Assembly (NCBI RefSeq): GCF_027924965.1 | Contig: NZ_AP027056.1 | Coordinates: 868,001 to 932,000 of the forward strand | Direction of reading: 5' to 3' | Length of the DNA stretch: 64,000 bases | DNA from: Limnohabitans sp. TEGF004 | GTDB taxonomy: Bacteria; Pseudomonadota; Gammaproteobacteria; Burkholderiales; Burkholderiaceae_C | Shown here: positions 10,977 through 33,487 of the stretch, in pieces | Layout of the letters: each line of letters begins with the position of its first letter | How positions within the stretch are numbered: position 1 is the stretch's first letter | Notes under the pieces: generated by a model | Told to the model about the DNA's origin: nothing | Seen by the model: only the letters and a program-made list of their open reading frames with translations | Databases searched by the model: none | Position numbers and translations under genes: made by a program

Positions 10977-12283
10977 AACCGATTCAAGTTGGCCTCTTAG
11001 GCATTGGCACTGTGGGCAGCGGCACTTACGAAGTGCTCAAACGCAATCAAGAAGAAATCCAACGTCGCGCCGGTCGCGGCATTGAAGTCACGATGGTGGC
11101 TGACCTCGATGTGGCACGTGCCAAAAGCATCGTGGGTGTGAATGTGCAAGTGGTGGACGATGCGCGCAAGATCATTGCCAACCCAGATATCGACATCGTG
11201 GTCGAACTCATTGGTGGCTACGGCATCGCCAAACAACTCGTGCTCGAAGCCATCGAAGCGGGTAAGCATGTGGTGACAGCCAACAAGGCATTGCTCGCCG
11301 TGCACGGCACAGAAATCTTCGCCGCCGCCCACAAAAAGGGCGTGATGGTGGCGTTTGAAGCTGCAGTTGCTGGCGGTATTCCCATCATCAAAGCTTTGCG
11401 CGAAGGCCTGACGGCCAACCGCATTCAGTGGCTGGCCGGCATCATCAACGGCACGACCAACTTCATCTTGTCGGAGATGCGCGACAAGGGTTTGACCTTT
11501 GACGACGTGCTCAAGCAAGCGCAAGCCTTGGGCTATGCCGAAGCTGACCCGACCTTCGACATCGAAGGTGTGGACGCCGCGCACAAAGCCACGCTCATGT
11601 CGGCCATTGCGTTTGGCGTACCTGTGCAGTTTGACAAGGCCTATGTCGAAGGCATCACCAAGCTCGAATCACAAGACATCAAGTACGCCGAACAACTCGG
11701 TTACCGCATCAAGCTCTTGGGTATTTCCAAGCGCACCGCTGCAGGCATTGAGCTGCGCGTGCATCCTTGCTTGGTGCCCGCCAAGCGTTTGATTGCCAAC
11801 GTTGAAGGTGCGATGAATGCGGTGATGGTGCACGCTGACGCCGTGGGCACCACGCTGTATTACGGCAAAGGCGCTGGCAGCGAGCCCACTGCCAGCGCGG
11901 TGATCGCCGACTTGGTGGACATCACACGTTTGCATACCGCAGACCCACTCAACCGAGTGCCGCATTTGGCCTTCCAGCCAGACGCGATGAGCAACTTGCC
12001 GATTCTGCCAATGGCCCAAGTGGTCACCAGCTACTACCTGCGTTTGCGCGTGGCCGATCAAGCGGGTGTGCTCGCCAAGGTCACAGGTATTTTGGCCAAC
12101 GCCGACATCAGCATTGATGCCGTGTTGCAGCGCGAAGCCGGTGAGGGCGAGAGCCACACCGACCTCATCATCTTGACCCACGATTGCGTGGAAGCCAAGA
12201 TGAATGAAGCCCTTGCTGAAATGCAAAAGCTGACCACCGTGTTGGCCCCGATCACCCGCATCCGCAAAGAAGAGTTGAACTGA
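10973..12283 (+). CDS. hom: Homoserine dehydrogenase
   Basis: Reduces aspartate semialdehyde to homoserine, the branch to threonine and methionine. The 436-residue protein has the nucleotide-binding GLLGIGTVGSGTYEVL at its start. The catalytic domain contains AGIINGTTNFILSEM and ALGYAEADPTFDIEGVDAAHK. A C-terminal ACT domain (from about residue 350, YYLRLRVADQAGVLAKVTGI) probably senses threonine. It is the monofunctional form with no aspartokinase fusion. ATGA overlap with alaA and one-base overlap with thrC imply coupled translation. Confidence 0.97.
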   Translation: MKPIQVGLLGIGTVGSGTYEVLKRNQEEIQRRAGRGIEVTMVADLDVARAKSIVGVNVQVVDDARKIIANPDIDIVVELIGGYGIAKQLVLEAIEAGKHVVTANKALLAVHGTEIFAAAHKKGVMVAFEAAVAGGIPIIKALREGLTANRIQWLAGIINGTTNFILSEMRDKGLTFDDVLKQAQALGYAEADPTFDIEGVDAAHKATLMSAIAFGVPVQFDKAYVEGITKLESQDIKYAEQLGYRIKLLGISKRTAAGIELRVHPCLVPAKRLIANVEGAMNAVMVHADAVGTTLYYGKGAGSEPTASAVIADLVDITRLHTADPLNRVPHLAFQPDAMSNLPILPMAQVVTSYYLRLRVADQAGVLAKVTGILANADISIDAVLQREAGEGESHTDLIILTHDCVEAKMNEALAEMQKLTTVLAPITRIRKEELN

Positions 12284-13716
12284 TGCTGTATTTGTCCACG
12301 CGCGGCCATGCCGAGCGCAAGCGTTTTTGTGAAATCCTCCTCGAGGGCTTGGCCCCCGATGGTGGTTTGTATTTGCCCGAGCACTACCCACAGGTGGACG
12401 ATGCAGCGCTCACGCGTTTGCGCAACACGTTCAACACACAAGGCTACGCAGCATTGGCATTTGAAGTGCTGTCGCTCTACATCGACGACATTCCTGCGGC
12501 TGACTTAAAAGCCTTGTGCGCCAAGACCTACACCAAAGAGGTTTACGGCACCGAGGCCATCGTGCCTCTGCGCAAGTTAGAAGACGGCTTGTGGGTCGAG
12601 GCTTTGTCCAACGGACCAACGCTCGCGTTCAAAGACATGGCCATGCAACTGCTGGGCAACTTGTTTGAATACGAGTTGGCACGCCGTGGCGAAGAATTGA
12701 ACATTTTTGGCGCGACCAGTGGCGACACTGGCAGCGCGGCCGAATACGCCATGCGTGGCAAAAAAGGTGTGCGCGTGTTCATGACCAGCCCACACGGCCG
12801 CATGAGCCCGTTCCAACAAGCGCAAATGTTCAGCTTGATGGATGAGAACATCCACAACATCGCCATCGAAGGCGTGTTTGACGATTGCCAAGACTTGGTC
12901 AAGGCCGTGTCCAACGATTTGGACTTCAAAACCAAATACAAAATTGGCACGGTCAACTCCATCAACTGGGCGCGTTTGTTGGCCCAAGTGGTGTACTATT
13001 TCGCAGGCTATTTCCAAGCGACCACCGCCAACAGCCAAAAGGTGAGCTTCACTGTGCCGAGTGGCAACTTTGGAAACGTCTGCGCAGGCCATGTGGCCCG
13101 CATGATGGGCTTGCCTGTGGACACCTTGGTGGCTGCCACCAACGAAAACGATGTGCTCGACGAGTTCTTCCGCACCGGCGTGTACCGCGTGCGCGGAAGT
13201 GCTGACACGCACGAAACCTCTAGCCCATCGATGGATATTTCCAAGGCCAGCAACTTCGAACGCTTTGTGTTCGATTTACTCGGTCGCGACGCGGCGCTCA
13301 CCAAAGACTTGTTTGGACCACAAATCTCGAAGAACGGCAAGTTCGACCTGAGTGGCAATCCACACTTTGCAGAAGCAGCAGCGCGTTACGGTTTTGCCAG
13401 CGGCAAGAGCACACATGCCAACCGATTGGCCACCATCCAAGACGTGCACAAACGCTTTGGCGAGATGATCGACACGCACACCGCCGACGGCGTGAAAGTG
13501 GCGCGTGAACACATCAAGGCTGGCGTGCCGATGATCGTGCTGGAAACTGCTTTGCCCATCAAATTTGCGGCCACCATCGTGGAAGCCTTGGGCCAAGAGC
13601 CCCATCGGCCGGCCAAGTTTGAAGGCATCGAAGCCTTGCCTAAGCGCGTGCAGGTGATGAAGGCAGATGTGGCGCAAATTAAGGCGTACATCACCCAGCA
13701 TTGCGACCACGCATGA
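12283..13716 (+). CDS. thrC: Threonine synthase
   Basis: Converts O-phosphohomoserine to threonine using PLP. The 477-residue length and N-terminus (STRGHAERKRFCEILLEGLAPDGGLYLPE) fit the long ThrC form. The PLP lysine lies in GPTLAFKDMAMQLLG, and the phosphate loop region is FGATSGDTGSAAEYA. The start codon shares one base with the hom stop, and the last bases overlap mobB by four. Confidence 0.97.
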   Translation: MLYLSTRGHAERKRFCEILLEGLAPDGGLYLPEHYPQVDDAALTRLRNTFNTQGYAALAFEVLSLYIDDIPAADLKALCAKTYTKEVYGTEAIVPLRKLEDGLWVEALSNGPTLAFKDMAMQLLGNLFEYELARRGEELNIFGATSGDTGSAAEYAMRGKKGVRVFMTSPHGRMSPFQQAQMFSLMDENIHNIAIEGVFDDCQDLVKAVSNDLDFKTKYKIGTVNSINWARLLAQVVYYFAGYFQATTANSQKVSFTVPSGNFGNVCAGHVARMMGLPVDTLVAATNENDVLDEFFRTGVYRVRGSADTHETSSPSMDISKASNFERFVFDLLGRDAALTKDLFGPQISKNGKFDLSGNPHFAEAAARYGFASGKSTHANRLATIQDVHKRFGEMIDTHTADGVKVAREHIKAGVPMIVLETALPIKFAATIVEALGQEPHRPAKFEGIEALPKRVQVMKADVAQIKAYITQHCDHA

Positions 13717-21368: not shown

Positions 21369-22700
21369 ATGCCTCAATCACTGAACGAACAACTCAGCCG
21401 CGAACAACAAATCGCCGCCCTCGAAAAAGACTGGGCGACCAACCCACGCTGGAAAGGCGTGAAGCGTGGTTACTCTGCTGCTGACGTCGTGCGCTTGCGC
21501 GGCAGCATGCCTATCGAGCACACACTTGCCAAGCGCGGTGCAGAAAAGCTCTGGGAAAAAGTCAACGGTGGCGCCAAGAAAGGCTACGTCAACGCATTCG
21601 GCGCGATCTCTGCTGGTCAAGCCATGCAACAAGCCAAAGCTGGCTTGGAAGCTGTGTACTTGTCAGGCTGGCAAGTTGCTGCTGACGGCAACACATCTGA
21701 AACCATGTACCCAGACCAATCGCTCTACGCGTACGACTCTGTGCCAACCATGGTTCGCCGCATCAACAACACATTCAAACGCGCTGACGAAATTCAATGG
21801 GGCCGTGGCATCAACCCAGGCGACAAAGAATTCATCGACTACTTCTTGCCAATCGTGGCTGACGCTGAAGCCGGTTTCGGTGGCGTGCTGAACGCTTTCG
21901 AATTGATGAAGAACATGATCACTGCTGGCGCTGCTGGCGTTCACTTCGAAGACCAATTGGCTGCTGTGAAGAAATGCGGTCACATGGGCGGCAAAGTGTT
22001 GGTGCCAACACAAGAAGCTTGCGAGAAATTGATCTCTGCACGTTTCGCTGCTGACGTCATGGGTACATCCACCATCGTGTTGGCACGTACCGATGCTGAA
22101 GCTGCTAACTTGATCACTTCTGACCACGACGCCAACGACAAGCCATTCTTGACAGGCGAGCGTACTCAAGAAGGTTTCTACCGCGTCAAAAACGGTTTGG
22201 AACAAGCCATCAGCCGCGGCGTTGCATACGCTCCTTACGCTGACTTGGTGTGGTGCGAAACAGGCGTGCCAGATATCGGCTTCGCTCGCGAATTCGCACA
22301 AGCTGTGCACGCTGCATGCCCAGGCAAGCTGTTGTCTTACAACTGCTCACCTTCTTTCAACTGGAAGAAGAACCTCAACGACAGCCAAATCGCTTCGTTC
22401 CAAGAAGACTTGTCAGCATTGGGTTACAAATACCAGTTCATCACATTGGCTGGTATCCACATCAACTGGTACAACACCTTCCAGTTTGCCAATGCATACG
22501 CCAACGGCGAAGGCATGAAGCACTACGTCAACATGGTGCAAGAGCCTGAGTTCGCAGCGCGCGACAAGGGTTACACCTTCGTGTCACACCAACAAGAAGT
22601 GGGCGCAGGCTACTTCGACGACGTCACTACCGTGATTCAAGGCGGTTCATCTTCTGTGAAAGCCCTCACAGGTTCTACTGAAGAAGAACAGTTCCACTAA
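21369..22700 (+). CDS. aceA: Isocitrate lyase
   Basis: Cleaves isocitrate to glyoxylate and succinate, the first step of the glyoxylate shunt needed for growth on acetate or on PHB-derived acetyl-CoA. The 443-residue protein has [29 protein letters not shown] and [13 protein letters not shown]. The catalytic loop cysteine is in [27 protein letters not shown] ([13 protein letters not shown]) and [14 protein letters not shown] also fit. No malate synthase gene is in the window. A diverged copy of its last 76 codons and terminator lies 2.6 kb downstream. Confidence 0.98.
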
Positions 22701-22795
22701 GCACTTCAATTGAGAGATGGTCTGTAAGGGCTGTCTCTTGGATTGAACAAGGTTTGAGACCACTCAGCGTGAAAGCGTTGGGTGGTTTTTTCTTG
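22472..22795 (+). repeat. Direct repeat, copy 1: 3' end of intact aceA and its terminator
   Basis: The last 76 codons of aceA with the following 95 bases, including the terminator, recur at 25107-25430 with high identity. Over the coding part I count nine synonymous changes, one Glu-to-Lys change and loss of the stop codon in copy 2. Confidence 0.9.
22759..22791 (+). terminator. Intrinsic terminator after aceA
   Basis: ACCACTCAGCG pairs with CGTTGGGTGGT (G-T pairs allowed), followed by six T. Confidence 0.85.
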
Positions 22796-22850
22796 GGTAA
22801 AGTGTTTGTGATTAAATTTGTCAGATCAACATTAATTTATCTTGGTCCTT

Positions 22851-23738
22851 ATGAAAATACTTCTCCAACTAGCTTTTTCAATATTCCTCGGGCTCGCTTC
22901 AACGACAGCCAGATCGCAAGCGTTAGATGTCGAGACGATTCAAATTGATCTTGGCCGTGAGTATGGACTTTTCAGCAAGTCACCTGCAGTGCTGAGGGCG
23001 ATATCCGCGAATGTTGAAAATACAAAACCAAAAACCGCAGTCCTGTTTTTTACAGGATGGCCAGGGATTCTTTGGATACCTGAAAAACTTGATCCTCAAA
23101 GATTTCTAAAAGCCGCAAGCAGAAGCGGCTTGTATGCTTTTACCAAGATTGATTTTTTCCCCTCTAAAGGCGTGACCTTTGTAGCTGTAGATTGCCCAAC
23201 AGATCAGTGGGGTAGTAGCGTTAGATCTGCTGATCCTTTTGGCTGTAGTGACACTTACCGTTCATCAGAGCAGCACGCCGCAGACATCTCTCAATTAATC
23301 AAACATCTGAAAGATCAAAAAGGAATTGAGCGAGTTTTCATTTGGGGCCACAGTTACGGAAGCGTATCTTCACGCTGGCTAGCTACCCGATTGGGTGACC
23401 AAATTCAAGGAAGCATTCATTCCGCTTCTATGTCTATTTCGGGTGGTGGGCGATTTTTTGATTACGGTCGCTCCATTAAACAGATGGATATGAGTAAGGC
23501 GAGTGCGCCTTGGGTTTTCGTTCACAACGAATCTGACGCCTGTGCTGGTACCGCCTATGCACCGATACAAGCGATTGCAGGAAAAAATCTCATCACAGTT
23601 CGAGGCGGTATTCCTGAAGGGGACCCATGTAGAGCAGGTCACTATCACTCTTACCAAGGACGGGAGCTTGATGCTTTGGAAGCTATAGCAGATTGGATGA
23701 TGACAGGCAAGATTGCTGAGTTTGTTGGTAATCCGTGA
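22851..23738 (+). CDS. Secreted alpha/beta-hydrolase-like protein
   Basis: 295 residues starting with a cleavable signal peptide (MKILLQLAFSIFLGLAS, ending near ARSQA). The nucleophile elbow GHSYGS is in FIWGHSYGSVSSRWLA, around residue 167. Candidate acid and histidine residues are in HNESDACAG and GHYHSYQGRE. Four cysteines (VDCP, FGCS, DACAG, DPCRA) may form disulfides in the periplasm. The fold is recognisable, the substrate is not. Base composition and codon use (AAA, AAT, CTT, AGA) are clearly AT-richer than the neighbours. It lies inside the aceA-repeat islet, which suggests horizontal acquisition. Confidence 0.72.
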   Translation: MKILLQLAFSIFLGLASTTARSQALDVETIQIDLGREYGLFSKSPAVLRAISANVENTKPKTAVLFFTGWPGILWIPEKLDPQRFLKAASRSGLYAFTKIDFFPSKGVTFVAVDCPTDQWGSSVRSADPFGCSDTYRSSEQHAADISQLIKHLKDQKGIERVFIWGHSYGSVSSRWLATRLGDQIQGSIHSASMSISGGGRFFDYGRSIKQMDMSKASAPWVFVHNESDACAGTAYAPIQAIAGKNLITVRGGIPEGDPCRAGHYHSYQGRELDALEAIADWMMTGKIAEFVGNP

Positions 23739-23864
23739 ATGCCAGCATCGCTCAAGAATACAGAGCGGTATTCGCATCTATCGCAAGAGACGCTTTCTGC
23801 TGCGGCTGATTCAGTGGCTCAAGCTATAGATGTGAACTGGGACCCTGTGGGGGCTCGTAGTTAG
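23739..23864 (+). pseudogene. C-terminal remnant of a tyrosine recombinase/phage integrase
   Basis: A 41-codon frame directly after the hydrolase stop and in the same phase reads SLKNTERYSHLSQETLSAA and continues to NWDPVGARS. This resembles the end of tyrosine integrases, where the nucleophilic tyrosine sits in a TxRYSHLS context. The upstream catalytic domain is missing. A terminator follows at once. The fragment is short, so assignment rests on one motif, but its position in a repeat-flanked islet supports it. Confidence 0.6.
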
Positions 23865-23865
23865 G

Positions 23866-23907
23866 AAACCCCAGCTCACTTACACAATTGGTGAGCTGGG
23901 TTTTTTT
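23866..23907. terminator. Bidirectional terminator
   Basis: AAACCCCAGCTCAC and GTGAGCTGGGTTTTTTT pair around an 11-base loop. It serves the hydrolase/integrase side and the convergent membrane-protein gene. Confidence 0.9.
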
Positions 23908-23909
23908 GA

Positions 23910-24785
23910 TTAGCCGCGAGTCAAATACACCTTAACAAAGCTGCTTTTCAGCGTGGCAGCTTTTGTGGGGAGTACCTCTTTTTCACCGCGGAGAGCCGAT
24001 TGCTGAAGGCTGTCTAAGTTCGCTCGAATGGCTTTAATTTCAGGGTCATTGGCAACTTCTTCAACGGCCTTCAGTTTGCCAGACACTTCTTCATACAGTG
24101 TCGTTGTTTTGCTGGCATCTTTGTGTTCAGCAGCTTCAAGAATAAGCTCCATTGCATCGTGGAAATCAATCAATGCGATAGATAGCATTGAAAAACCATT
24201 GCGTTTAAAAAGTTCTTGAAAAACAGGACGAACCTTCTCAAGGTCTAGGTGTGCTTGGTGTAAGTCACCAGTGCGAACTAAAACTTCAACGTCACGAAGA
24301 ATGGTGCTGACAGTTTTTAGATCACTATCGAATTGCTTATCTGTTTTTAATGCAAATGGTCGATAGTTCGCGTATTTAAGTTGGAACTCAGAATAGGCTG
24401 GAGCCCATTTTTCATAGTTGGCGATTGCTGATGAGCGCTCGCCTTTGCCTGTCAAAAATAGCGTTTGCTTGTAATGGTTGTTCATTTGATTGAAGTCTTC
24501 AAGGAAGTTCTTCTTTGTGAACCAAGCGCTTGCATACGCAGCACTACAAACAATGAGTGCTAAAACGAGCCATGCTTTCGTGCTGACCGACGATGCAGCA
24601 TTTGTTTTGCAATGTACCAATCGATATAGTGGGCAGAAGCTGAAGACTGCGCTAACAAGCATGATTGCACCTGCGATGTAGCTAGCGATCATCCATGGCT
24701 GTGCTAGCCAGAAGAATGACATGACGATGAACATTGTGCCAATTGCGATTCGAATGAATTGATCTAATTTACCGACGTTCTTCAT
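23910..24785 (-). CDS. DUF2892-like membrane protein with C-terminal helical periplasmic domain
   Basis: 291 residues. Residues 1-62 resemble the YgaP/DUF2892 two-helix membrane domain: MKNVGKLDQFIRIAIG, two hydrophobic segments, then CPLYRLVHCKT. A third membrane helix follows (about 70-90). The remaining 200 residues are mostly helical and charged, with DLHQAHLDLEKVRPVFQELF and FHDAMELILEAAEHKD. They recall four-helix-bundle periplasmic domains but contain no CxxCH haem motif. AAGGATC precedes the ATG. Composition is AT-rich like the neighbouring hydrolase. Function unknown. Confidence 0.7.
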   Translation of the reverse strand: MKNVGKLDQFIRIAIGTMFIVMSFFWLAQPWMIASYIAGAIMLVSAVFSFCPLYRLVHCKTNAASSVSTKAWLVLALIVCSAAYASAWFTKKNFLEDFNQMNNHYKQTLFLTGKGERSSAIANYEKWAPAYSEFQLKYANYRPFALKTDKQFDSDLKTVSTILRDVEVLVRTGDLHQAHLDLEKVRPVFQELFKRNGFSMLSIALIDFHDAMELILEAAEHKDASKTTTLYEEVSGKLKAVEEVANDPEIKAIRANLDSLQQSALRGEKEVLPTKAATLKSSFVKVYLTRG

Positions 24786-25106
24786 TTTTTGATCCTTCTA
24801 AGTTTTTATATTAAAGCATGCTTATATTTATATTGCTTCCTCTTGAACGAGGCTTTACCTTGGCTTAACAAAGCGCAGGGGCGTTGGAAACGTGTTGATA
24901 ATTTTTCCCCTCCATCCTTCCCCCAACTTCTACCGATGAAAATTTGGTGGGAGGTCACCCCTAACGAGTTTTGGTGCCCCCGATCTGGAAAATCAGCTCT
25001 GTTTCTGGTGTGACTTTGGGATGCCGGTGCGTGGTGTCCTTTTAGTGCCGCCGTTTTATCCCTAAGCTAATGAAACTATTAGAGTTTTCAACTGGCTCGG
25101 AAGGAT
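24786..25106. other. Non-coding stretch at the right end of the islet
   Basis: About 320 bases with no credible gene. The left end is the AT-rich promoter region of the DUF2892-like gene. The rest is of mixed composition and I recognise nothing in it. TTCAACTGG just before the repeat also occurs (as TCAACTGG) before copy 1 in aceA, so the junction is slightly ragged. Confidence 0.5.
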
Positions 25107-25347
25107 CAACACGTTCCAGTTCGCCAATGCCTACGCTAACGGCGAAGGCATGAAGCACTACGTCAACATGGTGCAAGAGCCTGAATTCGCAGCACGCGAC
25201 AAGGGTTACACCTTCGTGTCACACCAACAAGAAGTGGGCGCAGGCTACTTCGACGACGTGACTACTGTGATCCAAGGCGGTTCATCTTCTGTGAAAGCCC
25301 TCACAGGTTCTACTGAAGAAAAACAGTTCCACCAAGCACGTCAATGA
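25107..25347 (+). pseudogene. aceA 3'-end fragment (isocitrate lyase pseudogene)
   Basis: Codes [20 protein letters not shown] through to [20 protein letters not shown], the last 76 residues of isocitrate lyase plus four read-through codons, because the original stop is changed to CAA. There is no start region or promoter. Changes relative to the intact gene are nearly all synonymous, so this end diverged while still part of a working gene and was later cut off. Confidence 0.9.
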
Positions 25348-25393
25348 AGAGATGGCCTGAGAAGGCTGTCTCTTGGTTTAAATAGGGCTTGAG

Positions 25394-25426
25394 ACCACTC
25401 AGCGCGCGAGCGTTGGGTGGTTTTTT
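25394..25426 (+). terminator. Duplicated aceA terminator
   Basis: ACCACTCAGCGC and GCGTTGGGTGGT with T6, the counterpart of the terminator at 22759-22791. Confidence 0.82.
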
Positions 25427-25436
25427 ATTCAGACGG

Positions 25437-25790
25437 TCAGCGCTTGCATTTGTAGACCGCAAATATCTGCTTGCCAAATTCTGGTGTGGCGTCTTTCACC
25501 AGCGTGTCGCCGCCTAATTCCACCGCATTGTTTTGCCCAAGCTGCAGCAAGTTGGCCTCTACGGCATCCGCGTCGCGGTTGTAGATGCCCACTTTGGTGA
25601 CGACAATTACATTGACTTTGCCAAGTGACTGACAGTGTGTCACTTGATTGGTCTTCATCAGCAATACGCGTTCAGAGCCCGCGGCTGGTTTGAGGAAGCT
25701 GTTGGCGCACCCCATCAACAAGGATGTCGAGATGATGCAGCCACTGAGAAGCTTCAACTTCGTTGTGCATATTCCTGCATTGAGTGTCAT
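25437..25790 (-). CDS. Small lipoprotein, DUF4156-like
   Basis: 117 residues with an N-terminal signal and lipobox LLMGCANS (lipidated Cys around residue 28). The domain has VTHCQSLGKVNVIVV, the DADAVEANLLQLGQNNAVELGGDTLV pattern of DUF4156, and a final YKCKR cysteine, probably a disulfide partner of HCQS. Likely membrane-anchored and facing the periplasm. Downstream of the XRE gene on the same strand (15 bases), so perhaps co-transcribed. Function unknown. Confidence 0.72.
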   Translation of the reverse strand: MTLNAGICTTKLKLLSGCIISTSLLMGCANSFLKPAAGSERVLLMKTNQVTHCQSLGKVNVIVVTKVGIYNRDADAVEANLLQLGQNNAVELGGDTLVKDATPEFGKQIFAVYKCKR

Positions 25791-25805
25791 GTGGTGAATA
25801 GCCTC

Positions 25806-26078
25806 TTATTTTGAATTAATGTGCATATCAATTGGTGCTAACAGCATCCATGGCTCAACGCCTAAAGTTTCGGCGAGGCGTTCGATATTAGCCAACGACA
25901 CGTTCCAAACACTTCGCTCGACCGCTGACACATAAGTTCTGTCGAGATCGCAGGAGAGGGCTAATTTTTCTTGCGACCATCCTTTTTCAACCCGCAGCGT
26001 CCGGATATGCCATGCAAGTACTCCGCGGAGGTCATTTTTCGCGGGTTTCTTTTTGGGAGGAGTTGGTTTGGCTGACAC
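25806..26078 (-). CDS. XRE-family HTH regulator
   Basis: 90 residues. After a basic, proline-rich start (KPTPPKKKPAKND) comes a Cro/C1-type helix-turn-helix: LRGVLAWHIRTLRVEKGWSQEKLALSCDLDRTYVSAVERS and SLANIERLAETLGVEPWMLL. The start is GTG at 26078. Small single-domain regulators of this sort often occur in accessory DNA. Target unknown; it may control the adjacent lipoprotein genes. Confidence 0.85.
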   Translation of the reverse strand: MSAKPTPPKKKPAKNDLRGVLAWHIRTLRVEKGWSQEKLALSCDLDRTYVSAVERSVWNVSLANIERLAETLGVEPWMLLAPIDMHINSK

Positions 26079-26183
26079 CCTAGAAGCATCCCAATATGCT
26101 AAGCTTGCATCTACGGAGTTTGCTTCTCAAATGAAGGTGTCCGTTTAAAACGAAATGAACTTTTTAAAGAATTTGGAAAAAAT

Positions 26184-26525
26184 ATGAAAAATACATACCT
26201 TTTTTTGTTGGTAGTTGTTGCGTCATTGATCGGTTGCGCGTCACCAACGGTTGTTCAGAGCATGAAACCTGGTGACGCGGGTTTGTCTTGTGCTCAATTG
26301 CAAAATGAATACTCAGATGCAGATCGCTTCAAAAAAGAAGCAGAGGGCGAAAAGGGCGTAACGGGTGGTAACGCAGCGCGCTTGCTGTTTTGGCCAGCCA
26401 TCATCGGCACATATATGAATGCAAACGAAGCGATTGCAGCGGCAGAAAACCGTAAGGTTAATTTGGCTAATTTGATGAATCAAAAGAGTTGCCAAGTACC
26501 TGGTTCGTACCAAAGTCAAAAGTGA
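26184..26525 (+). CDS. Small lipoprotein of unknown function
   Basis: 113 residues with a signal peptide and lipobox LIGCAS (Cys at 18). The mature part has LSCAQLQNEYSDADRFKKEAEGEKG, a short hydrophobic stretch AARLLFWPAIIGTYMNANEAI, and NRKVNLANLMNQKSC. The two non-lipid cysteines could pair. The pattern resembles small proteobacterial lipoproteins with a glycine-zipper-like segment, but I do not recognise a named family. Divergent from the XRE gene. Confidence 0.75.
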   Translation: MKNTYLFLLVVVASLIGCASPTVVQSMKPGDAGLSCAQLQNEYSDADRFKKEAEGEKGVTGGNAARLLFWPAIIGTYMNANEAIAAAENRKVNLANLMNQKSCQVPGSYQSQK

Positions 26526-26596
26526 GAAATTTTTTGTAACCTGCATCTGTGAGGCTCAGCGCTAAAATCATTGCTTGGCGTTTAGGCACTCATTCC

Positions 26597-26622
26597 AAGC
26601 GCGGCCTTTGCCGCGCTTTTTT
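26597..26622 (+). terminator. Terminator or attenuator hairpin just upstream of thrS
   Basis: AAGCGCGGC, loop CTTT, GCCGCGCTT, then T6, ending 12 bases before the thrS start. GCTTGG (26573-26578) can pair with CCAAGC (26595-26600), which overlaps the 5' arm, so two exclusive folds are possible. Confidence 0.75.
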
Positions 26623-26634
26623 CATTGAAAACAC

Positions 26635-28542
<1,908 letters not shown>

Positions 28543-28618
28543 TTTCATTTAGGAATTGCCAAGAGTTGTGCGTCGCACACGTGTGTCGGTTTGTTTTTGA
28601 TTTTTAAGGATAGTCACC

Positions 28619-29218
28619 ATCGCTACAGAATTTCGCGACCGCCGCCAGCGCGAGGAACGCAAACACCGCCTTAACCGGGAAATCATGGCCCCGGAAGTCC
28701 GCCTTTCAGGTCCTGACAACGAACCCCTCGGTATCGTGAGCTTGGCTGATGCCTTGCGTATGGCCGGTGAGATTGACGTTGACTTGGTTGAAATTGCCGC
28801 CACGGCTGTGCCGCCGGTGTGCCGTTTGATGGACTACGGTAAGTTCAAGTACCAAGAGCAAAAGAAGGCTGCCGAAGCGAAGTCCAAGCAAAAGGTCATC
28901 GAGGTCAAGGAAATCAAGTTCCGTCCCGGTACCGATGATGGTGACTACAACATCAAGATGCGCAACATCAAGCGCTTCTTAGATGACGGTGACAAATGCA
29001 AGATCACGCTGCGCTTTCGTGGCCGCGAGATCACGCATCAAGAAATCGGTATGGCGCTGTTGCAGCGCATCCGTGATGAGTTGGCGGACCTGATCGTTGT
29101 TGAGCAGTTCCCCAAGCTTGAAGGGCGTCAGATGATCATGATGATCGCGCCTGGTAAGAAGAAATCGGGTGGCGCCGCCAAACCCGCTGCAGAAGCTGCT
29201 CCGGCAGCGTCTGCATAA
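28619..29218 (+). CDS. infC: Translation initiation factor IF-3 (rare AUC start)
   Basis: IF-3 binds the 30S subunit and discriminates against non-standard start codons. The conserved N-terminus [20 protein letters not shown] begins right after an ATC codon at 28619, with TAAGGA eight bases upstream. I take ATC as the start, by analogy with the AUU start of E. coli infC, which allows autoregulation. This gives 199 residues. The first ATG (28685) would remove 22 conserved residues. The core has [25 protein letters not shown] and [26 protein letters not shown]. Confidence 0.93.
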
Positions 29219-29254
29219 AAGGCGACGCAGATTAGTGTCTCGGGGCTTACAAGA

Positions 29255-29271
29255 CTACGCACCCTGCGTAG
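29255..29271 (+). other. Stem-loop in the rpmI leader
   Basis: CTACGCA and TGCGTAG pair around a CCC loop, 35 bases upstream of rpmI. There is no T run. The leader of rpmI-rplT is where L20 autoregulation acts in other bacteria, so this may be part of such a site. Confidence 0.4.
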
Positions 29272-29305
29272 GCGCCTCGCGAGCACAAATTAAAGGAGCA
29301 TCTAA

Positions 29306-29509
29306 ATGCCCAAAATGAAGACCAAAAGCAGCGCTAAAAAGCGCTTCCGCGTTCGTCCAGGCGGTACCGTTAAACGCGGTCAAGCCTTCAAACGTCACAT
29401 CTTGACTAAGAAGACGACCAAGAACAAGCGTCACTTGCGTGGTGCAGTGAATGTGCATGAGACCAACATGGGTCACATGGCGCAAATGCTGCCCAAGTGC
29501 GGCCTGTAA
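29306..29509 (+). CDS. rpmI: 50S ribosomal protein L35
   Basis: 67 residues, [20 protein letters not shown] with [18 protein letters not shown], diagnostic of L35. AAAGGAG precedes the start. Followed by rplT after 26 bases, the standard pairing. Confidence 0.98.
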
Positions 29510-29535
29510 TTAACTGACGAACAAGGAGAAAAAAT

Positions 29536-29895
29536 ATGCCTCGCGTTAAACGTGGTGTTACGGCCCGTGCCCGTCACAAAAAAGTTCTGGCTTTAGCCAA
29601 AGGTTTCCGCGGTCGTCGCGGTAACGTCTTCCGCATCGCTAAACAAGCGGTGATGAAGGCTGGTCAATATGCTTACCGCGACCGCCGCACTAAAAAGCGC
29701 GTGTTCCGTCAGCTGTGGATCGCTCGTATCAATGCTGCTGCACGTCAGTGCGGTCTGACATACAGCCAATTCGCCAACGGCCTGAAAAAGGCAGCGATCG
29801 AAATCGACCGCAAGATGTTGGCCGACTTGGCCGTTCACGACATGGCTGCTTTCGCCAGTATCGTGAATCAAGTCAAAGCCAAATTGGCCGCTTGA
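29536..29895 (+). CDS. rplT: 50S ribosomal protein L20
   Basis: 119 residues beginning [20 protein letters not shown], with [19 protein letters not shown] and the C-terminal globular part [20 protein letters not shown]20 is an early-assembly protein and often represses its own operon. AAGGAG precedes the ATG. Confidence 0.98.
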
Positions 29896-29921
29896 TAGTC
29901 AAGGGTTAACCACCCACGAGT

Positions 29922-29959
29922 AAAGGGGTTGGGGCTACACAGCTTCAATCCCTTTTTTT
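29922..29959 (+). terminator. Hairpin with T run between rplT and pheS
   Basis: AAAGGGGTTG pairs with CAATCCCTTT (one G-T pair) around a 14-base loop, then T7. It lies 24 bases before pheS, so it could partly terminate after rplT or act as an attenuator. I see no phenylalanine-rich leader peptide like E. coli pheM. Confidence 0.7.
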
Positions 29960-29983
29960 GTTTTCTCCTCTCCCCAAATTCTT

Positions 29984-31036
29984 ATGAACGAGTTGGACTC
30001 TCTGGTCGCCAGTGCCCAGGCCCTGTTTGCACAAAGCACCACACCGGCTGATCTTGAAAACGCCAAGGCCCAGTTCTTGGGCAAGTCAGGCCGCATCACC
30101 GAGATGATGAAAGGCATGGCCGCATTGAGCGTCGAAGAAAAGAAATCGACCGGTGCCGCCATCAACGTGGCCAAGCAAGCGATTGAAGCCGCGCTCACGG
30201 CACGCCGCCAAGCCTTGGCCGATGCCGAACTCGAGACCCAACTCAAAGCCGAAGCCTTGGATGTGACCTTGCCCGGTCGCGCTCGCATGGCTGGTGGCTT
30301 GCACCCTGTGACCATCACACTTGAACGCGTCGAAGCCATTTTTGGATCGATGGGTTTCGAAGTGGCCCAAGGCCCAGAGATCGAAACCGATTGGTTCAAC
30401 TTCACCGCGCTCAACACGCCGGAAGACCATCCTGCACGCTCCATGCACGACACCTTCTATGTGGAAGGTGGCAGCGCCGAAGCGCCCAACTTGTTGCGCA
30501 CACACACCAGCCCCATGCAAGTGCGCCACGCCGTGCAACACGTCAAGCGCTACCAAGCACGTTTGGATGCCGGTCAAGGCATGCCCGAAATTCGCGTCAT
30601 CGCACCCGGCCGCACCTACCGTGTGGACAGCGATGCCACGCACTCGCCCATGTTCCATCAATGCGAAGGCTTGTGGATTGGTGAGAATGTGAGTTTCAAA
30701 GACCTCAAAGTGGTCATCACCGATTTCTGCCGCACTTACTTTGAGAGCGACGATTTGGTGCTGCGCTTTCGCCCCAGCTTCTTCCCATTCACAGAGCCCA
30801 GCGCTGAGATTGACATCCAATTCCAAAGCGGCGCTTTGGCGGGCCGTTGGCTCGAAGTGGGTGGCTCAGGCCAAGTGCATCCGAACGTGGTGCGCAACAT
30901 GGGCCTCGATCCTGAGCGTTTCATCGGCTTTGCCTTTGGCATGGGTATGGACCGTTTCACCATGCTGCGTTACGGCGTGAACGACTTGCGCTTGTTCTTC
31001 GATGGCGACATTCGCTTCTTGAGCCAGTTCCAATAA
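29984..31036 (+). CDS. pheS: Phenylalanyl-tRNA synthetase alpha subunit
   Basis: Catalytic subunit of the alpha2-beta2 synthetase. The 350 residues comprise an N-terminal coiled coil (residues 1-90) and a class II core with [44 protein letters not shown] and the motif 3 region [20 protein letters not shown]. Directly upstream of pheT (24 bases). Confidence 0.98.
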
Positions 31037-31060
31037 CTTCACGCACACACGAGATTCATC

Positions 31061-33487
31061 ATGCAATTCCCCGAATCCTGGTTGCGCGAATTCTGCAACC
31101 CCTCACTCACCACCCAAGAGCTGGCCGACATATTGACCATGGCCGGTTTGGAAGTGGAAGAACTCCAACCCGTTGCACCGCCTTTCACAGGCATCGTCGT
31201 CGGTGAAATCAAAGAAGCCGTGCAGCATCCAGACGCTGACCGCTTGCGCATTTGCCAAGTGGACGTGGGGCAGGGCGCATTGCTCAACATCGTGTGCGGC
31301 GCACCGAATGCACGCGTGGGCATCAAAATTCCATGTGCCACTGTTGGCGCTGAACTGCCGCCCGGCGAAGACGGCAAGCCTTTCAAAATCAAAGTGGGCA
31401 AGCTGCGTGGCGTGGAAAGTCAAGGCATGTTGTGTTCGGCCAAAGAACTCAAAATTGCTGACGACAACGGTGGCTTGCTTGAGTTGCCAGCCGATGCACC
31501 TTTGGGTCAAAACATCCGCGAGTACCTGAACCTCGACGACACCTTGATGACATGCAAGCTCACGCCTAACTTGGCGCATTGCTTGAGCGTGTACGGCATT
31601 GCCCGCGAAGTGTCAGCCCTCACAGGTGCACCTTTGAAGGCGCCTACTTTCTCAAGCATCGCCGCGACAAACCAAGACACCTTGGCTGTGAAGATCAGCG
31701 CGTCTGATTTGTGCGGCCGTTTCTCTGGCCGCGTGGTGCGTGGCGTGAATACCAAGGCACAAACCCCTGCATGGATGGTGAACCACTTGGCCCGCTGCGG
31801 TCAGCGCAGCGTGAGCCCCTTGGTCGACATCTCCAACTACGTGATGTTCGAGCTGGGTCGTCCTTCACACATCTTTGATCTCGACAAAATTCAAGGCGGC
31901 TTGGAGGTGCGTTGGGGCAAAGCCGGTGAACAGCTTAAGCTCTTGAACGGCAACACCGTGACCGTGGACGACAAAGTGGGCGTCATCGCTGACGCGCATC
32001 AAGTCGAGTCACTCGCTGGCATCATGGGCGGCGACGCCACTGCCGTGAATGACGACACGCAAAACATTTATATCGAAGCCGCCTTCTGGTGGCCCTCGGC
32101 CATTGCAGGCCGCTCACGCCGCTTCAACTTCAGCACCGATGCTGGCCACCGCTTTGAACGTGGTGTGGATCCTGAGTTGACGGTGGAGCACATCGAGCGC
32201 ATCACCCAGTTGGTGATCGACATTTGCGGCACACCCAACACGACCGTGGGCCCGGTTGATGATCAACGTGTGAACATGCCTGTGGCCAAGCCTGTCACGT
32301 TGCGCGTGGCACGTGCTGAAAAAGTCATTGGCATGCCGCTGACCCAGCAACGCGTGGCGGATGCTTTGCGTGGCTTGGGCTTGCCCGTGACAGAAGGCGA
32401 AGGTGTTGTCACCGTGCAGCCCCCATCCTTCCGTTTCGATTTACAAATCGAAGAAGACCTGATCGAAGAAGTGGCGCGCATGGTGGGTTACAACAACCTG
32501 CCCACCACGCCACCGTTGGCACCCATCACGGCCAGCGCGTGTCAAGAAGCGCAACGTAGCCCACACGCTTTGCGCCACCACTTGGCAGCTTTGGGCTACC
32601 AAGAAACCATCAACTACAGCTTTGTGGATGAGCGTTGGGAGCACGAGTTGGCAGGCAATGCCAACCCCATCAAATTGCTCAACCCCATTGCCAGCCAAAT
32701 GAGCGTGATGCGGTCCACCTTATTGGGCTCCTTGCTCAACGTGGTGAAGTTCAACGTCGATCGCAAGGCCTCACGCGTGCGCGTGTTTGAGCTGGGTCGC
32801 GTGTTTCACAAAGACGCTTCGGTGCAAAACACAGACACCACCGTGCAAGGCTTTGACCAGCCCATGCAAGTGGCAGGCATTGCTTTTGGCAGCGCTGCAC
32901 CTTTGCAATGGGGCACCAAAGAACAAGCCGCAGACTTCTTCGACGTGAAAGCTGATGTGGAAGCTCTGTTGGCCCCCGCTGTCCCGCAGTTTGAAGCGGC
33001 TGAGCACCCAGCCATGCACCCCGGCCGTTGTGCCAAGGTGTTGGTCAATGGCCAAGCCGTGGGTCATGTGGGTGAGTTGCACCCACGCTGGCGTCAAAGC
33101 TGGGACTTGGCCCAAGCCCCTGTGATGTTTGAGCTCTCGCTCGATGCCGTGTTGCACCGCGATGTGCCCAAGTCCACCGGTGTGGCCAAGTTCCCTAACG
33201 TCGAGCGCGACATTGCTGTGATCGTCAAAGACAGCGTCACGCACGCCCAATTGATGGCTGCCGTGCACGCCGCCAAAACACAAGGTTTGCTGCGCAACGC
33301 CGTGTTGTTTGACGTGTATCGCCCCAAGGCTGAAAGTGCCGCCATGGCAATGGACGAGAAGAGCTTGGCCGTGCGCCTCACGCTCAACAGCGATGAAGCT
33401 ACGTTGAACGAAGCCCAAATCGAAGGTGTGGTGCAAGCCGTGCTGGCCGAATTGGCCGCTCAAGTCTCTGCGCGTTTGCGCGCTTGA
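31061..33487 (+). CDS. pheT: Phenylalanyl-tRNA synthetase beta subunit
   Basis: 808 residues. MQFPESWLREFCNPSLTTQE is the usual start. A tRNA-binding OB domain follows (IVVGEIKEAVQHPDADRLRICQVDVG), then the B3/B4 editing region (SNYVMFELGRPSHIFDLDKI) and the B5 domain. The C-terminal ferredoxin-like anticodon domain has STGVAKFPNVERDIAVIV. Length is normal for the family. Confidence 0.98.
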   Translation: MQFPESWLREFCNPSLTTQELADILTMAGLEVEELQPVAPPFTGIVVGEIKEAVQHPDADRLRICQVDVGQGALLNIVCGAPNARVGIKIPCATVGAELPPGEDGKPFKIKVGKLRGVESQGMLCSAKELKIADDNGGLLELPADAPLGQNIREYLNLDDTLMTCKLTPNLAHCLSVYGIAREVSALTGAPLKAPTFSSIAATNQDTLAVKISASDLCGRFSGRVVRGVNTKAQTPAWMVNHLARCGQRSVSPLVDISNYVMFELGRPSHIFDLDKIQGGLEVRWGKAGEQLKLLNGNTVTVDDKVGVIADAHQVESLAGIMGGDATAVNDDTQNIYIEAAFWWPSAIAGRSRRFNFSTDAGHRFERGVDPELTVEHIERITQLVIDICGTPNTTVGPVDDQRVNMPVAKPVTLRVARAEKVIGMPLTQQRVADALRGLGLPVTEGEGVVTVQPPSFRFDLQIEEDLIEEVARMVGYNNLPTTPPLAPITASACQEAQRSPHALRHHLAALGYQETINYSFVDERWEHELAGNANPIKLLNPIASQMSVMRSTLLGSLLNVVKFNVDRKASRVRVFELGRVFHKDASVQNTDTTVQGFDQPMQVAGIAFGSAAPLQWGTKEQAADFFDVKADVEALLAPAVPQFEAAEHPAMHPGRCAKVLVNGQAVGHVGELHPRWRQSWDLAQAPVMFELSLDAVLHRDVPKSTGVAKFPNVERDIAVIVKDSVTHAQLMAAVHAAKTQGLLRNAVLFDVYRPKAESAAMAMDEKSLAVRLTLNSDEATLNEAQIEGVVQAVLAELAAQVSARLRA

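Follow-up and report, generated by a model that had tools for sequence, protein, structure and literature searches.

An islet at the 3′ end of aceA in Limnohabitans sp. TEGF004 as a probable decayed integrase element that brought its own replacement gene end

A stretch of 64,000 nucleotides from Limnohabitans sp. TEGF004 (the window; positions below are counted from its first letter) holds an islet that is very probably a decayed tyrosine-integrase element, of a kind that inserts in the 3′ end of the isocitrate lyase gene aceA and brings a replacement end with it. The last ~76 codons of aceA and its terminator are repeated, headless, at 25107-25430, and we read the window's aceA as a host 5′ part joined to an element-supplied replacement 3′ end. 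From annotation alone the stranded tail would pass for a pseudogene or a duplication. The features of the locus are:

21369..22700, + strand: aceA, isocitrate lyase, complete open reading frame of 443 codons with the Pfam ICL domain
22472..22795, + strand: repeat copy 1, attL side, with core, putative replacement end and terminator
22503..22523, + strand: candidate crossover block, aceA copy (0 mismatches in nine attL/attR pairs)
22842..23738, + strand: cargo gene, alpha/beta hydrolase-fold protein of 298 aa, TTG start as listed (Abhydrolase_1, Hydrolase_4)
23739..23864, + strand: tyrosine integrase C-terminal remnant, 41 codons and stop, by alignment to a full-length integrase
23910..24785, − strand: cargo gene, membrane protein of 291 aa with a YgaP-like transmembrane domain, by family match
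24894..25106: right end of the element, adjoining the stranded tail; 24894-25713 is 83% identical to L033:6896-7723 of the genus genome G048
25107..25430, + strand: repeat copy 2, attR side, with core and the putatively resident, stranded aceA 3′ end, without stop codon
25138..25158, + strand: candidate crossover block, stranded copy (same nine-pair comparison)
25437..25790, − strand: resident flank, a DUF4156 lipoprotein-like gene, which directly follows aceA in the empty sites of G058, G053, G033 and G009

Queried with the 324-base repeat, the window's genome gives two matches, the repeat itself and a copy 92% identical over 323 bases, where an earlier, sequence-only reading of this DNA had placed the duplication. 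Codon by codon, the two tails differ exactly as that reading had counted, by nine synonymous differences, one missense change (E to K) and one lost stop, and a strong hairpin followed by T's is kept in both copies. The islet had also been called AT-rich, which is correct as a description (41-50% GC in 500-base windows, compared with 50-58% for aceA, its upstream neighbours and thrS), but the resident stretch 25500-26500 is itself at 44-52%, so that GC alone is not a marker of the islet. The integrase-like remnant is borne out, with 37 of its 41 residues (23739-23861) aligning at 46% identity (E 1e-4) to the C-terminus of a full-length integrase from the same site, while a Pfam scan of the remnant itself assigned no family; the surrounding 23745-23881 is 88% identical to L033:4669-4804 of G048. 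Both cargo genes are sporadic in the genus: at E 1e-20, relatives of the hydrolase occur in 4 of the 83 other genus genomes (5 of 84 counting the window) and relatives of the membrane protein in none of the 83 (1 of 84 counting the window). On the 3′ side of the stranded tail, 25806-26525 holds an HTH regulator and a 113-aa lipoprotein-like gene in continuous alignment with G058; this gene pair is absent between DUF4156 and thrS in G053, G033, G009 and G048.

The contrast between occupied and empty sites on which the sequence-only reading had staked its interpretation is present in the genus. Among the 18 single-copy genus loci fetched for this comparison, 13 run from an islet-free aceA end straight into the thrS flank, and the empty site of G058 gives one 95% alignment across 25107-32000. 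In two others (G050 and G010) aceA and thrS are separated by other genes, with the second aceA tail absent, and the sequence fetched for G047, G060 and G017 (three of the 18) contained no thrS match. The G050 locus, with ~2.9 kb of other open reading frames (one of 576 aa) between aceA and thrS at L039:5990-8882 and no second tail, represents a history of its own at this position.

An aceA tail was matched in 52 of 84 genus genomes (E 1e-20), four of which gave two matches, and a true second tail is present in three of these four: the window, G048 and G023. The double tail of G079 was rejected as a contig overlap, both contigs showing identical aceA sequence before the tail. On a contig of G055 that lacks the remainder of aceA, a headless tail follows a full-length integrase, and the aceA tail sequence of this genome equals that of the MAG Limnohabitans sp. 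Baikal-deep-G96 (L030, L076). At the family level the tail was matched in 379 of 399 genomes (E 1e-10), six of them with two matches; five of the six are of the element type (the window, G106, G196, G300 and G372), and the sixth pair belongs to G150. We take G106 and G300 as Ramlibacter sp. H39-3-26 and Delftia tsuruhatensis NBRC 16741, and G478 as Hydrogenophaga palleronii NBRC 102513. A scan of named genomes with the integrase confirmed 20 loci, 12 of them at least 55% identical to the query. In eight of the 12, those with an integrase identity of 62% or more, the retrieved sequence includes an aceA tail; among them are Comamonas testosteroni SWCO2, C. suwonensis EJ-4, Acidovorax radicis N35, Limnohabitans sp. 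2KL-1 and H. palleronii, the 15.4-kb contig of which has both ends inside the repeat; the retrieved sequence of the other four (55-58%) contains no aceA tail. Headless tails also occur in G510 and G511, from the genus of G196, with aceA and the stranded tail on separate contigs in G511. In all, 15 genomes carry a headless aceA tail, from Limnohabitans, Comamonas, Delftia, Acidovorax, Ramlibacter, Hydrogenophaga and further relatives.

Two loci show other arrangements. Contig L077 of Limnohabitans sp. 2KL-1 has three aceA ends (1232-1407, 11418-11731 and 12738-12923), one fused and two stranded; the last of these is eroded (78% identity with the fused copy), and the arrangement resembles the outcome of two successive insertions. 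In G499 a decayed aceA tail (L111:4438-4629), with transposase-like open reading frames beside it, lies ~1.5 Mb from an intact aceA; it has the appearance of a relic of such an element that was displaced.

In 14 of the 15 genomes the left edge of the tail falls at one and the same codon, a shared boundary of the sort that the sequence-only reading had suggested looking for; it is eroded in the fifteenth, G510. In the nine complete pairs, identity is 20-35% in the 60 bases before this edge and 93-100% in the 60 bases after it, and the same edge is readable in five further genomes. The two tails in which it is missing, one in G510 and the other the second stranded tail of 2KL-1, both look eroded. 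Differences between the copies are depleted near the edge, with 16 of 100 at positions 6-74 against a simulated mean of 31 (P 0.0004 in 5000 simulation runs, with each site weighted by its diversity among 45 distinct aceA tails and the cut at position 75 set after a first look at the data). Because differences are rare in the left ~70 bp, the crossover would be placed there. A 21-base block is mismatch-free in nine of nine attL/attR pairs (P 0.014), making 22503-22523 and 25138-25158 the best candidate for the crossover point, with one site in the window suggesting a crossover to the left of the block. The fused aceA ends in a stop in all nine pairs, and the stranded tail is without one in two of the nine. 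The repeat had been described as longer than a usual att core; its length stands, but a short core followed by a replacement end that the element carried describes it better than a single long att core.

The origin of the two ends is clear in G196, where the fused end is the element's and the stranded end the resident's. Compared with 14 relatives, its stranded-end untranslated region is ~92% identical over ~135 bases, whereas the fused-end untranslated region resembles theirs over the first 41 bases only; its coding tails do not discriminate resident from brought copy. In the window the same assignment has the untranslated region and the genes farther downstream in its favour, and would make the stranded copy the resident one: the stranded untranslated region, DUF4156 and thrS all have G058 as nearest relative. 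This test draws on ~90 untranslated bases together with the downstream genes, and it answers in part the earlier suggestion to ask which copy matches the relatives, since G053 is the nearest relative for the coding part of either copy, as for the aceA body (97.9%), and these parts do not discriminate. The fused-copy untranslated region is nearest G053 (92.2%) and equally the second copy of G048 (92.2%), the pheS-side genes are nearest G033 and G053, and the upstream MFS gene is nearest G033. The genus evidently recombines, and with nearest relatives so mixed along its length the window alone is a less clean case than G196 and does not decide between the copies. For G106, a genus search returned G106 alone, and hence no host comparison was available there.

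The integrases at aceA form a group of their own. Four of four scanned carry Arm-DNA-bind_3 and Phage_integrase domains, and in a tree drawn midpoint-rooted the nine full-length integrases at aceA share one side of a branch with support 100/99, the other side being four sister integrases (55-58% identical). No aceA is present in the retrieved sequence around these four sisters, two of which lie ~0.5 kb from tRNA-Lys genes that may be their insertion site. At six of the nine aceA loci a gap of about 230-250 bases separates the end of the integrase gene from the tail. The gene is broken in G048 and G372, is reduced to 41 codons in the window, and was searched for but not found in G023. Among the 399 family genomes, three have an integrase of at least 62% identity, and all three have a doubled aceA end. 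Where the integrase is 41-55% identical to the query (13 loci), no aceA was seen within a flank of at most 1.5 kb, a weak check in that it recovered the tail at only one of three known aceA-type loci, the tails of the others lying 3.5 and 6 kb away. Occupied and empty sites over several genera, together with nine full-length integrases and four sisters, form a set in which a change of target would be traceable and testable.

Cargo differs among the aceA elements. Common to those compared are a 144-187 aa protein without known function (in six), another small protein of this kind (in four), a regulator (in four) and a DUF3631 protein (in three). Of the primase/helicase-like genes that lie upstream of the integrase, four were scanned, and three of these gave a Pfam match (DUF3631, DUF5906/D5, Prim-Pol/PriCT_2). 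The window islet has none of the shared element genes beyond the integrase end, and its right end resembles that of G048. None of the selected element proteins that were scanned matched a phage structural family, and no phage structural genes were recognised on reading the open reading frame lists of the elements. In the Delftia tsuruhatensis NBRC 16741 element SIR2 and HerA genes lie side by side and match PADLOC strongly (L067:3679-6501), a candidate anti-phage defence cargo, and the G048 islet has, after the broken integrase, two open reading frames that by eye are like an IS3-type transposase pair (L033:4949-6096). Near the right end, the G-rich motif GGTGGGTGGT is unusual (found in 2% or fewer of 300 control windows) at the far position in eight of 13 loci and at the near position in three of 13, the motif having been picked from the same sequences; the window's own copy lies outside the searched interval. 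This is no more than suggestive of an integrase arm site.

That an element entered the 3′ end of aceA with a replacement end had been proposed from the window itself, and the proposal is upheld by the empty and occupied sites, the constant edge, the integrase clade and the untranslated end of G196. In the course of events that we infer, a circular form of the element would have carried the headless last ~76 codons of aceA with the terminator, and the integrase would have recombined this circle with the resident aceA near the left edge of the carried copy. That exchange would have given aceA a complete 3′ end of element origin and stranded its own former end on the far side of the element, at 25107-25430. 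Later the integrase would have been cut down to its C-terminus, other cargo would have come to lie in the element and the stranded stop would have been lost.

Homologous recombination, offered earlier as the alternative, fares less well, as it predicts neither a constant edge nor a dedicated integrase. A version without any integrase, in which homologous recombination, or a tandem duplication of the aceA-thrS region with later deletion, left part of a second aceA end and unrelated genes in between, could draw on the 324 bp of the repeat, which far exceed a usual att core, and on the two identical coding tails of Delftia. We regard it as very improbable in view of a left edge constant in 14 genomes, integrases of one clade at nine of these loci, cargo that is different each time and the alien untranslated end on the aceA of G196. 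It is also possible, but unlikely, that the aceA body, fused end and islet were swapped into the window together by homologous recombination from a G053-like occupied donor. The pattern of nearest relatives has something of this, G053 for the aceA body and fused untranslated region (97.9% and 92.2%) and G058 for the stranded untranslated region, DUF4156 and thrS. However, G053 itself is empty, the untranslated region amounts to just 90 bases that the second copy of G048 matches equally (92.2%), the upstream and pheS-side segments are nearest yet another relative, G033, and an earlier site-specific insertion would still be required in the donor. Insertion of an integrase element carrying its own aceA end therefore enters this account as well.

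On a larger scale, aceA might be the long-term docking site of one Comamonadaceae integrase clade that repeatedly swaps the last ~65 codons and the terminator between species, a conjecture that we consider doubtful. If it were true, the element family would be a vehicle of isocitrate lyase allele replacement, perhaps tuning the glyoxylate shunt, and the two stranded tails of 2KL-1 would record two successive swaps.

Phage records give little sign of a close relative. Against the integrase 1209 of them matched, all below 60% identity, with 29% the best among the matches listed. The aceA tail had five matches, including two 501-kb records annotated as isocitrate lyase and two without annotation; the match in Phage C48C1 closes a gene of 1.2 kb, which rules it out as a headless tail. 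In the literature searched (titles and the starts of abstracts) we found no report of aceA as an attachment site, and in the accessible part of PMC8191103 the sole mention of aceA is in an expression table. According to the available part of a study resting on a database of 1,757,053 predicted islands (PMC12884075), many islands restore the gene that they enter. That database may hold elements of the present type.

The principle is already known from the cryptic prophage e14 in icd of Escherichia coli, which likewise enters a 3′ end, supplies a replacement and leaves the old end headless, and aceA as the target is new so far as the searched literature shows. Phage 21 inserts at icd, as e14 does. 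The headless repeat of e14 is given as 163 bp in the part of PMC6379469 available. The aceA elements differ from e14 in their target and hosts and, as known from open reading frame lists and selected scans, in their primase/helicase-like genes and varied cargo. Elements with an Arm-DNA-bind_3 tyrosine integrase are what we take the P4-type class to denote, and with P4-type elements and islands the aceA elements share the Arm-DNA-bind_3 and Phage_integrase domains and the upstream primase/helicase-like gene. Their site, in contrast, is the end of a protein-coding gene, which adds aceA to the protein-coding gene ends used by integrases that rebuild the gene.
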